Source: Natrononativus amylolyticus (GTDB lineage Archaea > Halobacteriota > Halobacteria > Halobacteriales > Natrialbaceae). Taken from it: a stretch of 64,000 bases of DNA. The translations under genes were made by a program, and so were the position numbers. The stretch spans positions 2,666,001-2,730,000 of the forward strand of contig NZ_CP101458.1 in the NCBI RefSeq assembly GCF_024362525.1. Reading direction: 5' to 3'. The notes beneath the pieces were generated by a model. The model was not told the DNA's origin, ran no database searches, and worked only from the letters and a program-made list of their open reading frames with translations. Of the stretch, positions 1,556 to 10,667 are shown in pieces; position 1 is the first letter of the stretch, and each line of letters begins with the position of its first letter.

Positions 1556-3610
1556 ATGACACCATACAAGACACATACGACGACGCGACGAACGATTCTC
1601 CAGGCGGTCGCGGCCGGGACCGCAGTCAGCGTCGTAACAAAGGCGGTAGCGGCACAGGAGGCGCTCGACGGAGAGATCGAACTCGGCGGTCGACGAAGCG
1701 CCTGGGTCGGCCAGGCGCCCGACGAGATCGCCGACGAACGGAACCCGACGCTGCGTCTGACCGAGGGTCAGGAGTACACGCTTACCTGGGAGAACCTCGA
1801 CGGTGACGGGCACAACGTCGTCATCGAGGACGAGGACGGCGAGAACTTCCTCAGCACGGACATCGTCTCCGGCGTCGGTACGACCCAGACCGTCGAGTTC
1901 ACCGCGGAGGCCGGAATGGCCGAGTACTACTGTGCGCCCCACCCCTCGTCGATGCGCGGCGAGATCGAACTCGTCGACGGCGAGGAGGCCGAGGAGGAAG
2001 AGCCCGTCGAGGAAGAACCCGACGAGAACGGCGTACTCGTTCCCGAAGGGCCGACCGTCGGCCTCGAGACCGTCGCCGACGGACTGGCGGCGCCGGTCGA
2101 CCTCCAGGCCGCCCCCGGGGACGACGAGAACCGGTACGTCGTCGACCAGGTCGGGCAGATCTACGTCCACGGCCCGGACGGACTCGAGGAGGAGCCGTTT
2201 CTCGACCTCGAAGACCGGATGGTCGAACTCGATCCGGACTTCGACGAGCGCGGGCTCCTCGGACTCGCCTTCCACCCGGAGTTCGAGGAGAACCGCCGGT
2301 TTTTCGTCCACTACAGCGCGCCGGCACCGGATGGGGCAGAGATCGACGAGGGCGAAGACGGAGACGAGGAGGACGAACCTGAGGAAGAGGTCGACGAAGA
2401 AGAACCGGAAGAGGAGAATGACGACGAAACCGACGAGGACGAGGACGAACTCGACCACATCGGCACTATCGCAGAGTTCGAGGCGGACGACGACGGCACG
2501 TCGGCGGACCCGGGCTCCGAGCGGATCATCCTCGAGATACCGCACCCGCAGTTCAACCACAACGCCGGTCCGCTCGCGTTCGGCCCGGACGACGGCTATC
2601 TGTACGTGACAACCGGCGACGGTGGCGCGGGCGGTGACGTCGGCCCGGGGCACGTCGACGACTGGTACGACGAGATCGAGGGCGGGAACGGACAGGACAC
2701 GAGCGAGAACCTCCTCGGCGGAATCCTTCGGATCGACGTCGACGAGAACGGTGAGGGCGACCAGCCGTACGCGATTCCGGACGACAATCCGCTGGTCGGC
2801 TACGACGACTACTTGCCGGAGTACTACGCCTGGGGGATGCGCAACCCCTGGGGAATGTCCTTCACCAGGGACGGTGAACTGCTGGCGGCAGACGTCGGCC
2901 AGGCGCTGTTCGAGATCATCAACCACGTCGAGCGAGGCGGCAACTACGGCTGGAACGTCAGGGAAGGGACCCACTGTTTCGACCCCGAAACGCCGGAGGA
3001 GCCCCCCGAAGACTGCCCGCAGGCTGTCGACGAGGACGTTCCCGAACCTCGCGGCGGCGAACCGTTACTCGACCCGGTCGTCGAGTACCCGCAGTTCTAC
3101 GGCGATCAGGAGATCGGGATCGCCGTCATCGGCGGCTACCTCTACGAGACCGGGACGGTTCCGGCCCTCGAGGGGAACTACGTCTTCGGCGACTGGAGCC
3201 TCTCGTTCGACGATCCCTCCGGGTCGCTGTTCGTCGCCTACCCGCCCGAGGGGTGGCCCGACGAAGACGACCTCGAGGAGACGTTCGCCGATCAGGTCCC
3301 CGAGGGTGCCGACGAGGAGATCTTCCAGGAGGACCGCTGGGAGGGGCTCTGGCCGGTGGAGCAACTGCAGGTCGAGGGCGACGTCGCGGAGAACGGCCGA
3401 CTCGAGCGGTTCGTGCTGGGCTTCGGCCGGGACGCCGACGACGAACTCTACGTGTTGACGACCGAGGAGGGCGGTCCGACCGGCGAGACCGGACAGGTCC
3501 ACCGGATCGTCGACGCGAACGGAGAGTCAGACGCGGACGAGGACGAGGAGGTCGAAGACGGCGAAGACGGCGAAGACGACGGTGAAGAGACGACGGAAGA
3601 CGAGTCCTGA
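1556..3610 (+). CDS. Exported cupredoxin / PQQ-dependent sugar dehydrogenase fusion
   Basis: A 684-residue exported oxidoreductase. Residues 1-33 form a Tat signal (RR at 11-12, cleavage near AVAAQ). Residues about 36-140 are a blue-copper (cupredoxin) domain with the four type 1 copper ligands in order: His86, Cys126, His129, Met133. After an acidic linker, residues about 165-660 match soluble aldose sugar / glucose-sorbosone dehydrogenases, six-bladed propellers that use PQQ: 'ERGLLGLAFHPEF' (231-243), 'FNHNAGPLAFGPDDGYLYVTTGD' region with His335 as the likely catalytic base. An acidic block (about 264-299) is inserted inside the propeller, and the C-terminus is acidic too. The copper domain probably takes electrons from the quinone. 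It lies near, and converges on, a second quinoprotein gene. Confidence 0.85.
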   Translation: MTPYKTHTTTRRTILQAVAAGTAVSVVTKAVAAQEALDGEIELGGRRSAWVGQAPDEIADERNPTLRLTEGQEYTLTWENLDGDGHNVVIEDEDGENFLSTDIVSGVGTTQTVEFTAEAGMAEYYCAPHPSSMRGEIELVDGEEAEEEEPVEEEPDENGVLVPEGPTVGLETVADGLAAPVDLQAAPGDDENRYVVDQVGQIYVHGPDGLEEEPFLDLEDRMVELDPDFDERGLLGLAFHPEFEENRRFFVHYSAPAPDGAEIDEGEDGDEEDEPEEEVDEEEPEEENDDETDEDEDELDHIGTIAEFEADDDGTSADPGSERIILEIPHPQFNHNAGPLAFGPDDGYLYVTTGDGGAGGDVGPGHVDDWYDEIEGGNGQDTSENLLGGILRIDVDENGEGDQPYAIPDDNPLVGYDDYLPEYYAWGMRNPWGMSFTRDGELLAADVGQALFEIINHVERGGNYGWNVREGTHCFDPETPEEPPEDCPQAVDEDVPEPRGGEPLLDPVVEYPQFYGDQEIGIAVIGGYLYETGTVPALEGNYVFGDWSLSFDDPSGSLFVAYPPEGWPDEDDLEETFADQVPEGADEEIFQEDRWEGLWPVEQLQVEGDVAENGRLERFVLGFGRDADDELYVLTTEEGGPTGETGQVHRIVDANGESDADEDEEVEDGEDGEDDGEETTEDES

Positions 3611-3712: not shown

Positions 3713-5602
3713 TCAGGTGCTCAGCGAGTAAACGGTGACGACGTTACCCGCGAGATTCTCGTCGAGGGCGCCGCCGCGCCGTCCGCCCGCAGTGATCGCC
3801 ACGTAGGTTTTCTCCTCGTAGGGATCGTGCCAGATGATCGGGTCGCCGTCGACGCCGACGCCGATGTCGTCGACCCAGACGCGCTCGCCGGTTTCGGTCG
3901 CGTACGCGACGAACTCGCCCTCCGGCGTGCCGGCGAACGTCAGGCCGGTCGGCGTCGAGACGCAGCCGCCCGCGGTCGAGGTTTCGATGTCGAGCCAGTC
4001 CCGCCACTTGATCCGTCCCGTGAGCGGATCGAGGCCGACGATAACGCTGTGGTAGCCGTTCCACTCGTCGGGCCGTGGATCGTCCATCAGCGCCGGGTCT
4101 TCCTCTTCGTCCTCATCGTCATCCTCGTCGTCTTCGACCTCCTCTTCCTCCTCGTCTCCCGGCTCGTCGTCGTCGTTCTCATCCTCATCGGCGCCGAGTT
4201 CCTCCTCTTCTTCCTCCTCCTCTTCGGGCTCGTCCGCGACCGGTTCGGCCCGGATCGTGTCCATGCCGATGTAGTTCTCGCCGGCTTCGTACTCGACTTC
4301 GTACCACGAGAACTTCATGGGCTGGTTCGTCCCCTTGACGACGTAGGTCTGGGTGTGTGGATCGTAGGCGCTCGCCTGCGGATTCGTCCCGCCTTGCAGT
4401 TCCGGCATCACCCACGGTGCCGACTCGAGGTCGTCCTGGGGCGGAAGCGCCCACATGTTCAGGTGCTGGACGTGCTCTTCGCTGCGCTGGTAGAGCTGGC
4501 CGGTCTCCATGTTCACCGTGTAGATCCATCCGGTCTTCCCGGCCCAGACCGCCATGCTGGTCTGTTCGCCGTCGATCTCCCCCTGGATCACCATGGGCGG
4601 GTTCGAGGAGTCGTAGTCCCACCAGTCGTGGGGCGCGTCCTGGAAGTGCCAGGCGTACTCGCCGGTGTTCGCGTCGACGCCGACTTTGCCCGCGGAGTAG
4701 GGGTTAAAGCCCGGCCGGACGGTTCCGTACCACGGGCCCGGGTTCGCCGAGGGGATGACTATCTGTTCGGTCCGCGGATCGAGCGCGCCCGCCGGCCAGG
4801 CGGTCGCGCCGCCGTGTCGCCAGGAGTCGCCGACCCACTCGTGCTCGGGCGTCATATTGACGCGCCACTCGATGTTGCCCTCGAGGTCGATCGCGTCGTA
4901 GAACCCGCTCACCCCGTACTCGCCGCCGAAGCTGCCCTTGCTGAGTCGCCCGTTGTAGATGATCGGCGGGAACGAGGAAGTCGTTCCGACGGCGCGCTCC
5001 CACTGGAGTTCCTCGTGCATGACGTTCTCGGCGGGTTCGCCGCGGTAGGCTGCCGCCCCGTTGAAGTACCACTCCTCCTCGCCCGTGTACCGATCGAGCG
5101 CCTGGACGCCCAGGTCGAGGGTACTCGTGTAGATTCGATCGCCGAGGACCGAGACGCCGCGTTCGGCCGACGGGCTCTCCTCGGAGGTGCCGACGTACGG
5201 CTCGTAGACGTGCGACCACAGGAACTCGCCGGTCCGGGCGTTGAGGGCGTGGACGTGGTCCGGTCCGAACGTGATGTACATCACCGGCGGGTCGCCCTGG
5301 ATAATGATCGGCGAGCCCTGGAAGTCGTTCTGCGGAGTCAGGTGCTCGAACTGATACTCCACTTCCAGCTGGCCGACGTTGTCGGGCGTGATCTCCTCGC
5401 CGACGTAGTGGCGCTGGTTCTCGTAGTTGTTACCGTACATCAACCAGTTCTCGGTCGTCGAACCGGAGGCGAGCAAGTCGTCCTCGGTCACGTCGACCTC
5501 GGGGATCTGGTCGGTGTCGTGCTGTTCGATATCGGACTCGCCCGGCTTTTCGTGCCACGGCGCGTCTTCCGGTAGCTCTTCTAAGTGTGATTCGAACGTC
5601 AT
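3713..5602 (-). CDS. PQQ-dependent (quinoprotein) alcohol dehydrogenase without its own signal peptide
   Basis: A 629-residue eight-bladed propeller of the methanol/alcohol dehydrogenase family. Expected metal and catalytic residues are all visible: Glu228 (in GGEYGV), Asn287 (in SANPGPW), Asp329 (in HDWWDYD), plus Asp331 two residues later, the extra acid seen in lanthanide-dependent XoxF/ExaF/PedH enzymes. The tryptophan-docking repeat 'GGCVSTPTGLTFAGTPEGEF' is near residue 545. The adjacent Cys-Cys disulfide of bacterial enzymes is absent. An insert of almost only Glu/Asp lies at about 459-505. The N-terminus is acidic, not a signal peptide, although family members work outside the membrane. 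ATG 5602 is preferred over GTG 5611 because a strong Shine-Dalgarno (GAGGTGA) lies 5 bases before it and overlaps the stop of the upstream Tat-exported partner. Confidence 0.88.
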   Translation of the reverse strand: MTFESHLEELPEDAPWHEKPGESDIEQHDTDQIPEVDVTEDDLLASGSTTENWLMYGNNYENQRHYVGEEITPDNVGQLEVEYQFEHLTPQNDFQGSPIIIQGDPPVMYITFGPDHVHALNARTGEFLWSHVYEPYVGTSEESPSAERGVSVLGDRIYTSTLDLGVQALDRYTGEEEWYFNGAAAYRGEPAENVMHEELQWERAVGTTSSFPPIIYNGRLSKGSFGGEYGVSGFYDAIDLEGNIEWRVNMTPEHEWVGDSWRHGGATAWPAGALDPRTEQIVIPSANPGPWYGTVRPGFNPYSAGKVGVDANTGEYAWHFQDAPHDWWDYDSSNPPMVIQGEIDGEQTSMAVWAGKTGWIYTVNMETGQLYQRSEEHVQHLNMWALPPQDDLESAPWVMPELQGGTNPQASAYDPHTQTYVVKGTNQPMKFSWYEVEYEAGENYIGMDTIRAEPVADEPEEEEEEEEELGADEDENDDDEPGDEEEEEVEDDEDDDEDEEEDPALMDDPRPDEWNGYHSVIVGLDPLTGRIKWRDWLDIETSTAGGCVSTPTGLTFAGTPEGEFVAYATETGERVWVDDIGVGVDGDPIIWHDPYEEKTYVAITAGGRRGGALDENLAGNVVTVYSLST

Positions 5603-5607
5603 CGGTC

Positions 5608-5614
5608 TCACCTC
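5608..5614 (-). promoter_or_regulatory. Shine-Dalgarno overlapping the upstream stop codon
   Basis: GAGGTGA on the minus strand complements the 3' end of archaeal 16S rRNA (CACCTCC). Its last three bases are the TGA stop of the partner gene, and the ATG of the alcohol dehydrogenase follows after 5 bases. This tight arrangement suggests that both proteins are made in a coupled way. Confidence 0.75.
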
Positions 5615-6543
5615 GCCCCCGCCATGGGAGCACGCTTGTCGTCCGTGATTCGCACGACGTCGTGGAGCAGGAACTCCTGTGCGATGATCATGATCGCCGA
5701 TCCCGCCGTGATCAGCGTCGTCAGGTGTTCGTCGGCGATACTACCCGCGGCCAGGTCCCGCGCTGCCGATCCCAGCAGGTAGTAGCCCCCGAGCATCGAC
5801 TTGATGTCCCAGAGCCCGCGGTCGATCATCTCCGGCGTGACCAGGACCGCACGCTGCCAGAGGAAGTGATCCAACCCGTCGATCCACAGCAGGGACCCCT
5901 CCGCGGCCCGCTGCTGGAGCGGCGCGACGTACTCGTGGACGACGCCGTCGTCGACCGCCTCCGCCGGCGGGTACTCGAGCGTCGGCATCCACCAGGACAG
6001 CTGTTCGCGTGCGTTGACGATGTTGGCGACCAGCGCCGCCTGCTCCTGGCCGCTGAAGCCGAGTTCGCCGAGCGTCGCCGGGAGCGAGTCGATGTGCAGG
6101 AGCTGTCGGGTCGTCGTCTCGATGTGCTCGGGCGTAAACGCCGGCAACGTCTCCTCGGCGCTCGAGAAGAAGCCCACCGCCGCCAGGTGGTCGTTGATCG
6201 CCCACGCGCCCGTCGTCAGCTCGCGGTAGGCCGACTGTCCCTGCTCGGGGACCCCCATCGCCTGGAGCTGGGGGAGTTGTTCGAAACTCGAGGCGAGCGC
6301 CGACAGCTCGCTGGTGAGCAACGCCTGGTCGAGCGAGCCGGTGAGCCCGGAACGGAGCGACTCGCCCATCTCCGCGAGTCCGGCCGTCGAACCGGTCGAA
6401 ACCTCCGAGCGGAGGTCGCCGAGCGTCGCGCCCGCGACGCCGGCACCGGCGATGACGCCGAGGGCCTTCAGGAACTCGCGCCGGTCCTCGTCGCTCACCT
6501 CCCCGTAGCTGTATCGTTCGTCTGGATTCGTCCCATATGCCAT
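5608..6543 (-). CDS. Tat-exported partner protein of the quinoprotein dehydrogenase, unknown family
   Basis: A 311-residue protein that I do not recognise. It opens with a clear Tat signal: acidic N-terminus, RREFLK at residues 21-26, then a hydrophobic segment (ALGVIAGAGVAGATLG). The rest looks helical, with many Leu/Ala-rich stretches, and ends with a hydrophobic helix (about residues 272-295) that could be a membrane anchor or a buried helix. No cysteine pairs or cofactor motifs are visible. It is the first gene of a two-gene unit with the signal-less alcohol dehydrogenase, whose ribosome binding site overlaps this stop codon. By context it is a second subunit, export carrier or membrane anchor; this is inference. 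Confidence 0.75.
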   Translation of the reverse strand: MAYGTNPDERYSYGEVSDEDRREFLKALGVIAGAGVAGATLGDLRSEVSTGSTAGLAEMGESLRSGLTGSLDQALLTSELSALASSFEQLPQLQAMGVPEQGQSAYRELTTGAWAINDHLAAVGFFSSAEETLPAFTPEHIETTTRQLLHIDSLPATLGELGFSGQEQAALVANIVNAREQLSWWMPTLEYPPAEAVDDGVVHEYVAPLQQRAAEGSLLWIDGLDHFLWQRAVLVTPEMIDRGLWDIKSMLGGYYLLGSAARDLAAGSIADEHLTTLITAGSAIMIIAQEFLLHDVVRITDDKRAPMAGAR

Positions 6544-6759: not shown

Positions 6760-8700
6760 GTGAGTACCACAGACGAAGAGACGCCGTTCGACGCCTACAG
6801 AGAGCACGTCGACCGTCCGCTCTCGAGGCTGTTCCGCGAGTACGGTCCCGGCCGGTTGCACTGGTTTTCGATCGCGATGGTGGCGAACTTCATCGCCCAG
6901 ATGTCCTCGCTCGTCCCGCCGCTGATCCTCGGAGCGGCGATCGACGCCATCTTCACCGAGGGCGGCGAGGGGTACAGCCTCCCGGTGGTACCCGACGCCT
7001 GGCTGCCGGCGACGGAGATGGCCCAGTTCTGGTTCTCCGTGAGCGCCATCGCGGGGGCGTTTATCCTGGTCGGCGTCTTCACCTGGATCTACGGCGTCTC
7101 GGGCAACCTGTTCGCCCACGACGTGATGCACACGGTCAGGGTCGACTGCTTCCGGAAGATGCAGGAACTGGACATGACCTTCTTCGACGACAAGCAGACC
7201 GGCGAGGTCATGGCCGTCCTCAACAACGACACCCAGAACCTCGAGATGTTCCTGGACAACGCGCTCATCAACTCGGTTCGACTGCTCGTGATGGTCGGCG
7301 GCATCACGGCGATCCTGTTCTTTCTCAACTGGCAGCTCGCGTTCGTCACGCTCGTCGCGATCCCGGTCATGTTCGCCTTCACCTACTGGTTCATGGTCAC
7401 CGTCGAACCCCGCTACGTTCGCCAGCGGGCGGCCGTCGGCTGGCTCAACACCCGCCTCGAGAACAGCCTCTCGGGGATGGGGTTGACGAAGACGACGAGC
7501 AGCGAGGAGTACGAAGTGGGTCGAGTCCGCAAGGCCTCGAAGCGGCTGTTCGACGACACGATGGCCGTCCTCAAGCTCTCCTACGTCTACCGGCCGGGGA
7601 TGGAACTGCTCGCCGGGATCGCCTTCGCCGCCACCTTCCTCGTCGGCGGCTGGTGGATCGCCACCGGCACCGCGCCGGGGCCGATGACCGGCACGCTCCA
7701 GGTCGGCGAGTTCGTCACCTTCCTCTTTCTGACGCAGTTCATCGTCTCGCCGCTCGCGGAGGTCTCGAACATCGTCGACCAGTACGAGAACGCCAAGGCC
7801 TCGAGCGAGCGCGTCTTCGGGCTGATGGACATCCCGATCTACGTCAGCGATCCGGACGAACCCGATGAGCTCGAGCCCGTAACGGGCCGGGTCGAGTACG
7901 ACGAGGTCTCCTTCAGCTACGCCGAGGGAGAGCGCCGGGCAGTCGGCGACGAGGCCGACGGTGAGGAGGAAGTCGTCGTCGAGGACCTCTCGTTCGTCGC
8001 CGAACCCGGCGACACCGTCGCGCTGGTCGGCCCGACGGGGGCCGGCAAGTCGACGGTGCTCAAGCTGCTGTTGCGGCTGTACGACGTCAGCGACGGCGAG
8101 ATCCGCGTCGACGGCCACGACGTCCGCGACGTCCGCCTCGACGAGCTCCGCGACGCGATCGGCTACGTCAGCCAGGAGACGTTCCTCTTCGACGGGACGA
8201 TCGCCGACAACATCCGGTACGGCCACTTCGAGGCGAGCAACGAGGCCGTCCGGGAGGCTGCGAAGGCGGCCCAGGCCCACGAGTTCATCGAAGAGCTCGA
8301 GGACGAGTACGAGACGCGCGTCGGCGAGCGCGGCGTGAAGCTCTCCGGCGGCCAGCGCCAGCGGGTCGCCCTCGCCCGGACCGTCCTCCAGGATCCCGAG
8401 GTCCTGATCTTAGACGAGGCGACCAGCGCCGTCGACACGAAGACCGAGCTGCTGATCCAGCGCTCGATCGACCGCCTCACCGAAGACCGGACGACGCTCG
8501 CGATCGCCCACCGGCTCTCGACGGTGAAGGACGCCGACACCATCCTCGTCCTCGAGGGCGGCCGGATCGTCGAGCGCGGGAGCCACGAGGAGTTACTCGA
8601 GCGCGGCGGGCGGTACGCGACGCTGTGGGGCGTCCAGGCCGGCGACGTCGACGAGGCGCTCGACGCGCTGGCCGACGGCGGCGGAGAGCGATCCTCCTGA
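6760..8700 (+). CDS. ABC exporter, fused membrane and ATPase domains
   Basis: A 646-residue type IV (multidrug/lipid exporter-like) half-transporter. An N-terminal domain with about six membrane segments (roughly residues 25-320) is followed by an ATPase with Walker A GPTGAGKST, signature LSGGQRQR, Walker B VLILDEATSAVD and a switch His in IAHRLST. A short acidic insert precedes Walker A. The frame is open from 6637, but the GTG at 6760 (VSTTDEETPFDAYREH) starts where homologous proteins normally start and the extra upstream residues look non-coding. It would work as a homodimer or with a partner encoded elsewhere. Substrate unknown. It stands alone, transcribed away from the quinoprotein unit. 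Confidence 0.85.
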   Translation: MSTTDEETPFDAYREHVDRPLSRLFREYGPGRLHWFSIAMVANFIAQMSSLVPPLILGAAIDAIFTEGGEGYSLPVVPDAWLPATEMAQFWFSVSAIAGAFILVGVFTWIYGVSGNLFAHDVMHTVRVDCFRKMQELDMTFFDDKQTGEVMAVLNNDTQNLEMFLDNALINSVRLLVMVGGITAILFFLNWQLAFVTLVAIPVMFAFTYWFMVTVEPRYVRQRAAVGWLNTRLENSLSGMGLTKTTSSEEYEVGRVRKASKRLFDDTMAVLKLSYVYRPGMELLAGIAFAATFLVGGWWIATGTAPGPMTGTLQVGEFVTFLFLTQFIVSPLAEVSNIVDQYENAKASSERVFGLMDIPIYVSDPDEPDELEPVTGRVEYDEVSFSYAEGERRAVGDEADGEEEVVVEDLSFVAEPGDTVALVGPTGAGKSTVLKLLLRLYDVSDGEIRVDGHDVRDVRLDELRDAIGYVSQETFLFDGTIADNIRYGHFEASNEAVREAAKAAQAHEFIEELEDEYETRVGERGVKLSGGQRQRVALARTVLQDPEVLILDEATSAVDTKTELLIQRSIDRLTEDRTTLAIAHRLSTVKDADTILVLEGGRIVERGSHEELLERGGRYATLWGVQAGDVDEALDALADGGGERSS

Positions 8701-9311: not shown

Positions 9312-10667
9312 ATGACAAGCGGAAATCTCTCAGCGACAGAGCAGGCGGTGCTCGACGAGATCGACGAGAAGGGTGTCGACTTCCTCAGACTCCAGTTTAC
9401 CGACATTCTCGGAACCGTAAAGAACGTCTCCGTCCCCGCCCGCCAGGCGGAGAAGGCGTTCACCGAGGGGATCTACTTCGACGGCTCCTCCATCGAAGGG
9501 TTCGTCCGGATCCAGGAGTCCGACATGCGCCTCAAACCCGACCCGGAGACGTTCGCGGTCCTGCCGTGGCGGGACAACGAGGAGAGCGCCGCCGGTCGGA
9601 TGATCTGCGACGTGATCAACACCTCGACCGGTGAACCGTTCGCGGGTGACCCCCGGTACGTGCTCAAGCGGGCCCTCGAGCGCGCGAGCGACATGGGCTA
9701 CACCATCAACGCCGCCCCCGAACCCGAGTTCTTCCTGTTCGAGGAGGACGAGGAGGGCCGCGCGACGACGAAGACCAACGACGCCGGCGGCTACTTCGAC
9801 CTCGCGCCGAAGGACCTCGCACAGGACGTCCGCCGGGACATCATCTACGGGCTCGAGGACATGGGCTTCGAGGTCGAAGCCAGCCACCACGAGGTCGCCG
9901 AGGGCCAACACGAGATCAACTTCGAGTACGACGACGCGCTCACGACCGCGGACAACGTCGGCACCTTCCGCACCGTCGTCCGCGCCATCGCCGCCCAGCA
10001 CGGCTACCACGCGACGTTCATGCCCAAGCCGATCGCCCGCATCAACGGCTCGGGGATGCACACCCACATCTCGCTGTTCACCGAGGACGGCGAGAACGCC
10101 TTCCACGACGACGACGACGAGTTCAACCTCAGCTCGGAAGCGAAGTCGTTCCTCGCGGGGATCTTAGAGCACGCCCCCGCGATCACGGCGATCGCCAACC
10201 CCACAGTCAACAGCTACAAGCGCCTGGTTCCCGGCTACGAGGCGCCGGTCTACGTGGCGTGGTCCGACCGCAACCGCTCGGCGCTGATCCGCCGGCCCGC
10301 CGCCCGCGTCCCCGCGGCCTCCCGGATCGAACTGCGCTCGCCCGACCCCTCGTGTAACCCCTACCTCGCGCTCGCGGTCATGATCCACGCCGGCCTCGAC
10401 GGCATGGAACAGGGCCTCGAGGCGCCCGACCCCGTCCGGGAGAACATCTACGAGTTCGACGAGGTGAAACGCGAGGAGTACGGCATCGAGACGCTGCCCG
10501 CCAACCTGGGCGAGGCCGTCGACGCCCTCGAGGCCGACGAGGCGATCTACAGCGCGCTGGGCCCCCACATCGGCCCGAAGTTCGTCGAGGCCAAGCGCCA
10601 GGAGTTCGAGGAGTACATCGTCGAAGTCTCCGAGTGGGAACTCGAGCGCTACCTCGAGACGTTCTGA
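9312..10667 (+). CDS. glnA: Glutamine synthetase type I (alpha subtype)
   Basis: A 451-residue glutamine synthetase that joins ammonia to glutamate using ATP, the main nitrogen assimilation step. Family motifs are present: DGSSIEGF (substrate/metal region), [10 protein letters not shown] (metal-binding Glu), GSGMHTHIS (ATP/ammonium site), [11 protein letters not shown] and [16 protein letters not shown]. The length and the absence of the 25-residue insert and of the adenylylation-site tyrosine motif (NLYDLPPEE-like) place it in the alpha subtype, controlled by feedback or protein partners and not by adenylylation. The divergent Lrp gene next to it is the likely regulator. Confidence 0.95.

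Follow-up and report, generated by a model that had tools for sequence, protein, structure and literature searches.

The gene on the minus strand at positions 3713 to 5611 of the window (the whole stretch of 64,000 nucleotides of Natrononativus amylolyticus contig NZ_CP101458.1 that was analysed) was read, at a probability of about 0.62, as coding for the catalytic subunit of a two-subunit PQQ dehydrogenase specific to haloarchaea, probably exported as a hitchhiker through the Tat system and feeding a blue copper protein. The interest of the system lies as much in its obligate partner and haloarchaeal architecture as in its metal motif. The features used below are listed with their coordinates; residue numbers in P0001 equal those of a preliminary description of this DNA plus 3, and the metal ligands are given in both numberings.

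1556..3610, plus strand: GSDH-type dehydrogenase (PF07995) carrying a fused cupredoxin domain (PF00127) that has a Tat-like N-terminus; convergent neighbour
3713..5611, minus strand: catalytic subunit P0001, eight-bladed PQQ dehydrogenase (PF01011), 632 aa from GTG 5611
4085..4225, minus strand: long acidic low-complexity insert, predicted to be disordered (pLDDT <50 at 470-509)
4535..4537, minus strand: active-site Lys K359, Arg in MDH and XoxF (alignment)
4610..4612, minus strand: extra Asp331 (D334) at +2, a lanthanide-type ligand position, in PHDWWDYDS (alignment; conservation)
4616..4618, minus strand: catalytic and metal Asp329 (D332) (alignment to 6zcw and 6dam; conservation)
4742..4744, minus strand: metal ligand Asn287 (N290), in ANPGP (alignment to 6zcw and 6dam)
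4796..4798, minus strand: PQQ-floor Trp W272, invariant in 136 haloarchaeal and bacterial rows
4919..4921, minus strand: metal ligand Glu228 (E231), in GGE (alignment to 6zcw and 6dam)
5608..6543, minus strand: partner subunit P0002, all-helical with a Tat signal, directly upstream of the catalytic gene and in the same direction
6409..6483, minus strand: the partner's twin-arginine motif with its hydrophobic stretch, RREFLKALGVIAGAGVAGA, including RREFLKALG

The preliminary description had placed a quinoprotein dehydrogenase at 3713-5602. The open reading frame proved real, on the minus strand, and scored 164 bits with PF01011, whose cut-off is 26.7. The start given there, ATG 5602, yields 629 aa and was favoured because homologues mostly start with MTF or MTY; if GTG 5611 is used, the gene overlaps P0002 by 4 nt (GTGA). 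The AlphaFold2 model of the catalytic subunit had a pLDDT of 83.9 and a pTM of 0.86. Its top structural match was the lanthanide enzyme PedH (Foldseek E 4.6e-41; VIA-align Z 41.2, 2.2 Å, 500 residues), with Ca-dependent alcohol and methanol dehydrogenases close behind (VIA-align Z 37-40) and solved PQQ dehydrogenases generally at Z 35-41.

The metal site had been described as complete (Glu228, Asn287, Asp329 and Asp331), and this was borne out: the four residues occupy those positions and align gaplessly (phmmer) to PedH (6zcw) and XoxF (6dam), the PedH counterparts of the three stretches being GGEFGV, GNPAPW and PHDGWDFDG. Model pLDDT was about 80 around the Asp-x-Asp motif, and the assignment of Asp331 as a ligand rests on the gapless PedH alignment. 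The PQQ-floor Trp, the metal Glu, Asn and Asp and the active-site Arg or Lys by which the PQQ dehydrogenase superfamily is recognised were all present, as was, by sequence, the ligand set (Glu, Asn, Asp, plus a further Asp at +2) expected of lanthanide-dependent PQQ alcohol dehydrogenases; the Trp, Arg, Lys and Glu of the PQQ pocket were conserved. W272 is presumably the position of Trp243 of MDH, judging by its spacing to the Asn. The residue before the metal Glu was Gly, as in XoxF and PedH, a Gly that MxaF lacks, and the NPxP loop carried Pro as in PedH and MxaF, where XoxF has Thr.

Conservation was assessed in a set of 40 haloarchaeal homologues that a whole-protein search had supplied with no use of the motif. 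W272, N290, D332, Y333, D334, K359 and R151 were invariant in 40 of 40, and since this set was unbiased, the invariance of the first six argues against a chance origin of the metal-site residues. The exception among the PQQ and metal residues was the Glu ligand in group C (groups are defined below). A wider alignment comprised 51 haloarchaeal rows, 10 of them pattern-selected, and 85 bacterial rows; E231 was Glu in 44 of the 51 and Asp or Tyr in the 7 most divergent. The bacterial loci (L112-L181) were chosen with a pattern containing HDxWDYD, so the frequency of Asp at +2 in them is no evidence of its prevalence; the unbiased sets were the plasmid set and the 40 haloarchaeal rows. The metal site could probably hold a trivalent lanthanide.

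Relatives of the catalytic subunit were found by protein search in 59 of 341 haloarchaeal genomes, from Natrialbaceae and other haloarchaea. Two trees were built, one with plasmid references (careful, under a mixture model) and a quick one with the 85 bacterial rows. The preliminary description had proposed a phylogeny with XoxF, MxaF and ExaF. In both trees all haloarchaeal proteins formed one haloarchaea-only clade with full support, apart from XoxF and the alcohol and glucose dehydrogenases. The NCBIfam model for methanol and ethanol PQQ dehydrogenases (TIGR03075) gave 277 bits, under its cut-off of 480. This score and the clade together define a separate branch of PQQ dehydrogenases that is neither XoxF nor ExaF. 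The model for membrane glucose dehydrogenase (TIGR03074) gave 120 bits against a cut-off of 833, with its best stretch at profile positions 384-504, and a hydrophobic N-terminus was not found. The relatives were sorted into four groups: A, with the window's copy; A', to which the other copy of that genome (L063:9586-11295) belongs; B; and C. The acidic insert was confined to group A catalytic subunits, where its length was very variable, and was absent from groups A', B and C. The vicinal Cys-Cys of methanol dehydrogenase was missing in the window's group, which reads SEESPSAERG at that place, and was present in group B.

Likeness to characterised enzymes was partial in each case. The lanthanide PQQ ethanol dehydrogenase PedH/ExaF (PDB 6zcv/6zcw) shares the fold, the four metal ligands, the Gly before the Glu and the NPxPW loop, whereas the haloarchaeal enzyme is only 28% identical, has Lys for Arg and no vicinal disulphide, forms its own clade, carries no signal peptide of its own, has an obligate helical partner and lies in a cupredoxin rather than a cytochrome c context. 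XoxF methanol dehydrogenase has the same fold, E-N-D-D site and WDYD but falls in a different clade, and the haloarchaeal enzyme lacks its Cys pair, has Pro rather than Thr in NPxPW and showed neither xoxG cytochrome c nor xoxJ binding-protein genes among its neighbours. With membrane glucose dehydrogenase (Gcd) and its relatives it shares HDxWDxD, the active-site Lys and the lack of the vicinal Cys pair; it differs in lacking the N-terminal membrane helices, in possessing the Glu ligand that Gcd lacks, and in its separate branch. Quinoproteins of marine heterotrophic thaumarchaea (HMT) are likewise PQQ dehydrogenases from Archaea; DYD occurs in some of them and the Cys pair in none. They are set apart by their published description: most have signal or membrane segments of their own, no partner is described, and a PQQ synthase is reported, of which none was found in the haloarchaeal genomes examined here (PMC7300363).

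The partner subunit was modelled with confidence (pLDDT 90.6), and beyond its signal no Pfam or NCBIfam family was recognised in it. Foldseek returned no solved structure at E <= 0.001, and the best VIA-align match (Z 6.6) was at helical-bundle level only, for which reason no fold relation is claimed. The profile of the partner alignment found nothing among PDB sequences. The partner adjoined every haloarchaeal PQQ dehydrogenase gene inspected (45 partners for 45 PQQ genes, one of these genes cut by a locus edge) and likewise adjoined it at 11 further loci. The partner, searched for by profile, and the dehydrogenase, searched for by protein sequence, occurred in the same 59 of 341 genomes, G216 having only fragments of both, and the other 282 had neither at the thresholds used; no partner was found beside any bacterial homologue in the stretches fetched. 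The catalytic gene and its partner are an obligate two-gene unit. The preliminary description, which pictured one gene, had overlooked the partner, the absence of PQQ synthesis and the cupredoxin context.

Neither a twin-arginine signal nor a strongly hydrophobic N-terminus was found on any catalytic subunit, and the Tat motif was present on all group A and group C partners listed. A signal on the partner only, joined with strict gene linkage, is the mark of a Tat hitchhiker pair, and both were found in the window and in groups A and C. Such export has been demonstrated for the FAD glucose dehydrogenase of Burkholderia cepacia, whose small helical subunit likewise carries a Tat signal and lacks known structural relatives; its catalytic subunit is a GMC flavoprotein of unrelated fold and its gamma subunit has 168 aa against 311 aa in the haloarchaeal partner, so that the mechanism would be analogous and the proteins not related (PMC6719666). 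By this analogy and from the distribution of signals, export on the partner's Tat signal is probably the simplest reading. Three group C catalytic subunits (L079, L080 and L082) ended in PGF-CTERM-like tails. PGF-CTERM anchors are carried by exported proteins only, and such tails on signal-less subunits imply export by some carrier. The Tat motif was lost in the partners of group A' and of most of group B while the gene pair was kept (e.g. L063:11299-12249 and L074:10070-10990), which means that the partner does more than carry a signal or that these enzymes stay inside the cell, and suggests a second role for it such as folding or PQQ loading. The same loss is the ground for regarding the partner as a dedicated chaperone or electron-transfer subunit, with export by another route. 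That explanation is unlikely, because in groups A and C the partner's signal is the sole recognisable one, the PGF-CTERM-like tails imply some carrier, and the aligned partners showed no obvious motif for binding a metal or haem.

Profiles of PqqC and PqqE stayed under their cut-offs in 10 of 10 haloarchaea that hold the enzyme (of these, G285 and G357 are apparently one genome under two handles), and both positive controls, Methylomonas and Amphritea, exceeded them. PqqE was also under its cut-off in all 61 family members searched, and PqqB in the window's genome. Because the canonical synthesis genes are absent, PQQ would have to come from scavenging or from some non-canonical pathway; scavenging from the surroundings is probable, and many non-producers are described as scavengers (PMC12124388). 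The lack of synthesis genes could alternatively mean an empty quinoprotein, a propeller kept for some other role that binds no PQQ, to which a weak similarity to acido-empty-quinoprotein group A (TIGR04528; 198 bits, under the cut-off of 650) might also point. Strict conservation of the PQQ and metal residues in the 40 haloarchaeal sequences, the group C Glu excepted, together with the scavenging habit of non-producers, makes this very improbable.

As to the acceptor, the cupredoxin forms the N-terminal domain of the protein at 1556-3610 and is the probable electron acceptor of the PQQ dehydrogenase. A cupredoxin lay within 3 kb of 24 of 40 PQQ dehydrogenase copies, and L083 and L084 had enzyme and cupredoxin as a fusion; with the profile used, none was found near the other 16. 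Cupredoxins are numerous in haloarchaea, which counts against the link: the window's genome gave 17 matches, two of them the immediate neighbours of its two PQQ dehydrogenases. For the HMT quinoproteins, transfer to quinones or blue copper proteins has been proposed (PMC7300363).

In the reading preferred here, the catalytic protein and its partner would associate, Tat would export the pair by means of the signal on the partner, and PQQ would be picked up from the surroundings. Outside the cell a metal held by the Glu, Asn and two Asp residues would activate PQQ, and an alcohol-type group (alcohol, polyol or sugar) would be oxidised with Asp329 as the putative catalytic base. Electrons would then pass singly to the blue copper protein, and from there enter the respiratory chain.

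Whether the normal metal is a lanthanide or calcium stands at about even odds. The extra Asp had been taken as separating lanthanide-dependent from calcium-dependent enzymes, and that rule is not supported as it stood: Klebsiella membrane glucose dehydrogenase carries HHDLWDFD, and the E. coli enzyme (mGDH) has the motif and takes Ca, Mg, Zn or Sr, even though the same paper treats Asp-x-Asp as diagnostic and predicts facultative lanthanide dependence for it (PMC11996626). Since the motif occurs in a Ca- and Mg-using enzyme, it is insufficient by itself to call a lanthanide enzyme. The present site is nevertheless closer to PedH and XoxF than to mGDH, which has no Glu ligand, and lanthanide use by the haloarchaeal enzyme is plausible from its sequence. 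Strict dependence, with La, Ce or Nd needed and little or no activity with Ca as in XoxF and PedH, has somewhat less than an even chance. It is favoured by the full E-N-D-D quartet with Gly preceding the Glu, the Asp at +2 in all 40 haloarchaeal homologues and the rank of PedH as top structural match, and by the table of PMC11845868, in which the enzymes with this quartet are lanthanide enzymes; against these are set the different clade at about 28% identity, the Lys for Arg, the missing vicinal disulphide and xoxG/J neighbours, the mGDH precedent for Asp-x-Asp combined with Ca or Mg, and the fact that no lanthanide uptake or regulation gene was identified. Free Ca is, moreover, far more abundant than lanthanides in most waters.

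The converse, a Ca (or Mg) quinoprotein whose extra Asp is ancestral, inherited and non-selective as in membrane glucose dehydrogenase, falls a little short of evens. It draws on the Asp-x-Asp motifs outside lanthanide enzymes and on a Na+/Ca2+ exchanger (PF01699) subfamily that lies within 8 kb of a PQQ dehydrogenase gene in 11 of the 16 genomes examined, the exchanger having partly guided the choice of these genomes. It has to contend with the Glu ligand, present here and missing from mGDH, and the exchanger is not at the window's locus. To our knowledge, every characterised enzyme that combines the four ligands is a lanthanide enzyme. The exchanger loci are L047:12347-13474, L051-L054, L057, L058, L060-L062, L067 and L068, often with an HTH and an amphi-Trp gene alongside; they are possibly concerned with metal supply. 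Beside the cluster in the window, the solute-binding protein at 79-1392 belongs to SBP_bac_6, and its resemblance to Fe3+-type binding proteins was judged by eye. It was considered as a trivalent-metal importer and dropped, not being among the neighbours common to most other PQQ loci.

The fuller proposal, a lanthanide-dependent two-subunit haloarchaeal dehydrogenase that is exported by Tat on a partner of unknown family, uses scavenged PQQ and replaces cytochrome c with blue copper, is put forward tentatively, with the odds leaning against it. If true, no earlier rare-earth enzyme demonstrated in haloarchaea, and no earlier quinoprotein equipped with a hitchhiker subunit, would be known to us; the rare-earth biology known to us is so far bacterial and rests on XoxF and ExaF/PedH. 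Searches of the open literature, in which few subscription papers are covered, turned up nothing specific to haloarchaeal PQQ or lanthanide dehydrogenases. The preliminary description had considered such an enzyme noteworthy in Archaea, and a complete site of the XoxF/ExaF/PedH type in an archaeon was borne out; it is not the first DYD quinoprotein in Archaea, and the archaeal host is not new in itself, since marine thaumarchaea had earlier yielded DYD quinoproteins that lack the Cys pair (PMC7300363). The haloarchaeal family, conserved and with all four metal ligands, offers a defined, expressible system for asking about lanthanide use in Archaea and brines, and bears on whether Asp-x-Asp is a diagnostic feature or just an ancestral one. 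The partner family, with no named-family match, provides a ready test of quinoprotein co-export by Tat in organisms that rely heavily on that pathway, and the lack of PQQ synthesis would turn PQQ into a vitamin exchanged among members of hypersaline communities.

Several loci showed further features. Three group B loci (L077:1892-4793, L072:14976-17841 and L067:14067-17974) carried three tandem signal-less NMT1/THI5-like proteins, in places with a VOC-like protein alongside, possibly a cofactor pathway. Near group B copies there were also genes that by sequence appearance code for aldehyde ferredoxin oxidoreductase-like and formate dehydrogenase-like molybdoenzymes (L071:5280-7208, L075:1653-3590 and L067:11207-13411); these putative genes are compatible with a route from alcohol through aldehyde to acid. 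In G047 the PQQ dehydrogenase was split into two overlapping frames (L065:8228-9739 and 9618-10517), through either breakage of the gene or misassembly. On the Natrinema plasmid NZ_CP082248 (L086:6953-8710) the PQQ dehydrogenase was annotated only as hypothetical, with its start at 7559 instead of near 6953.
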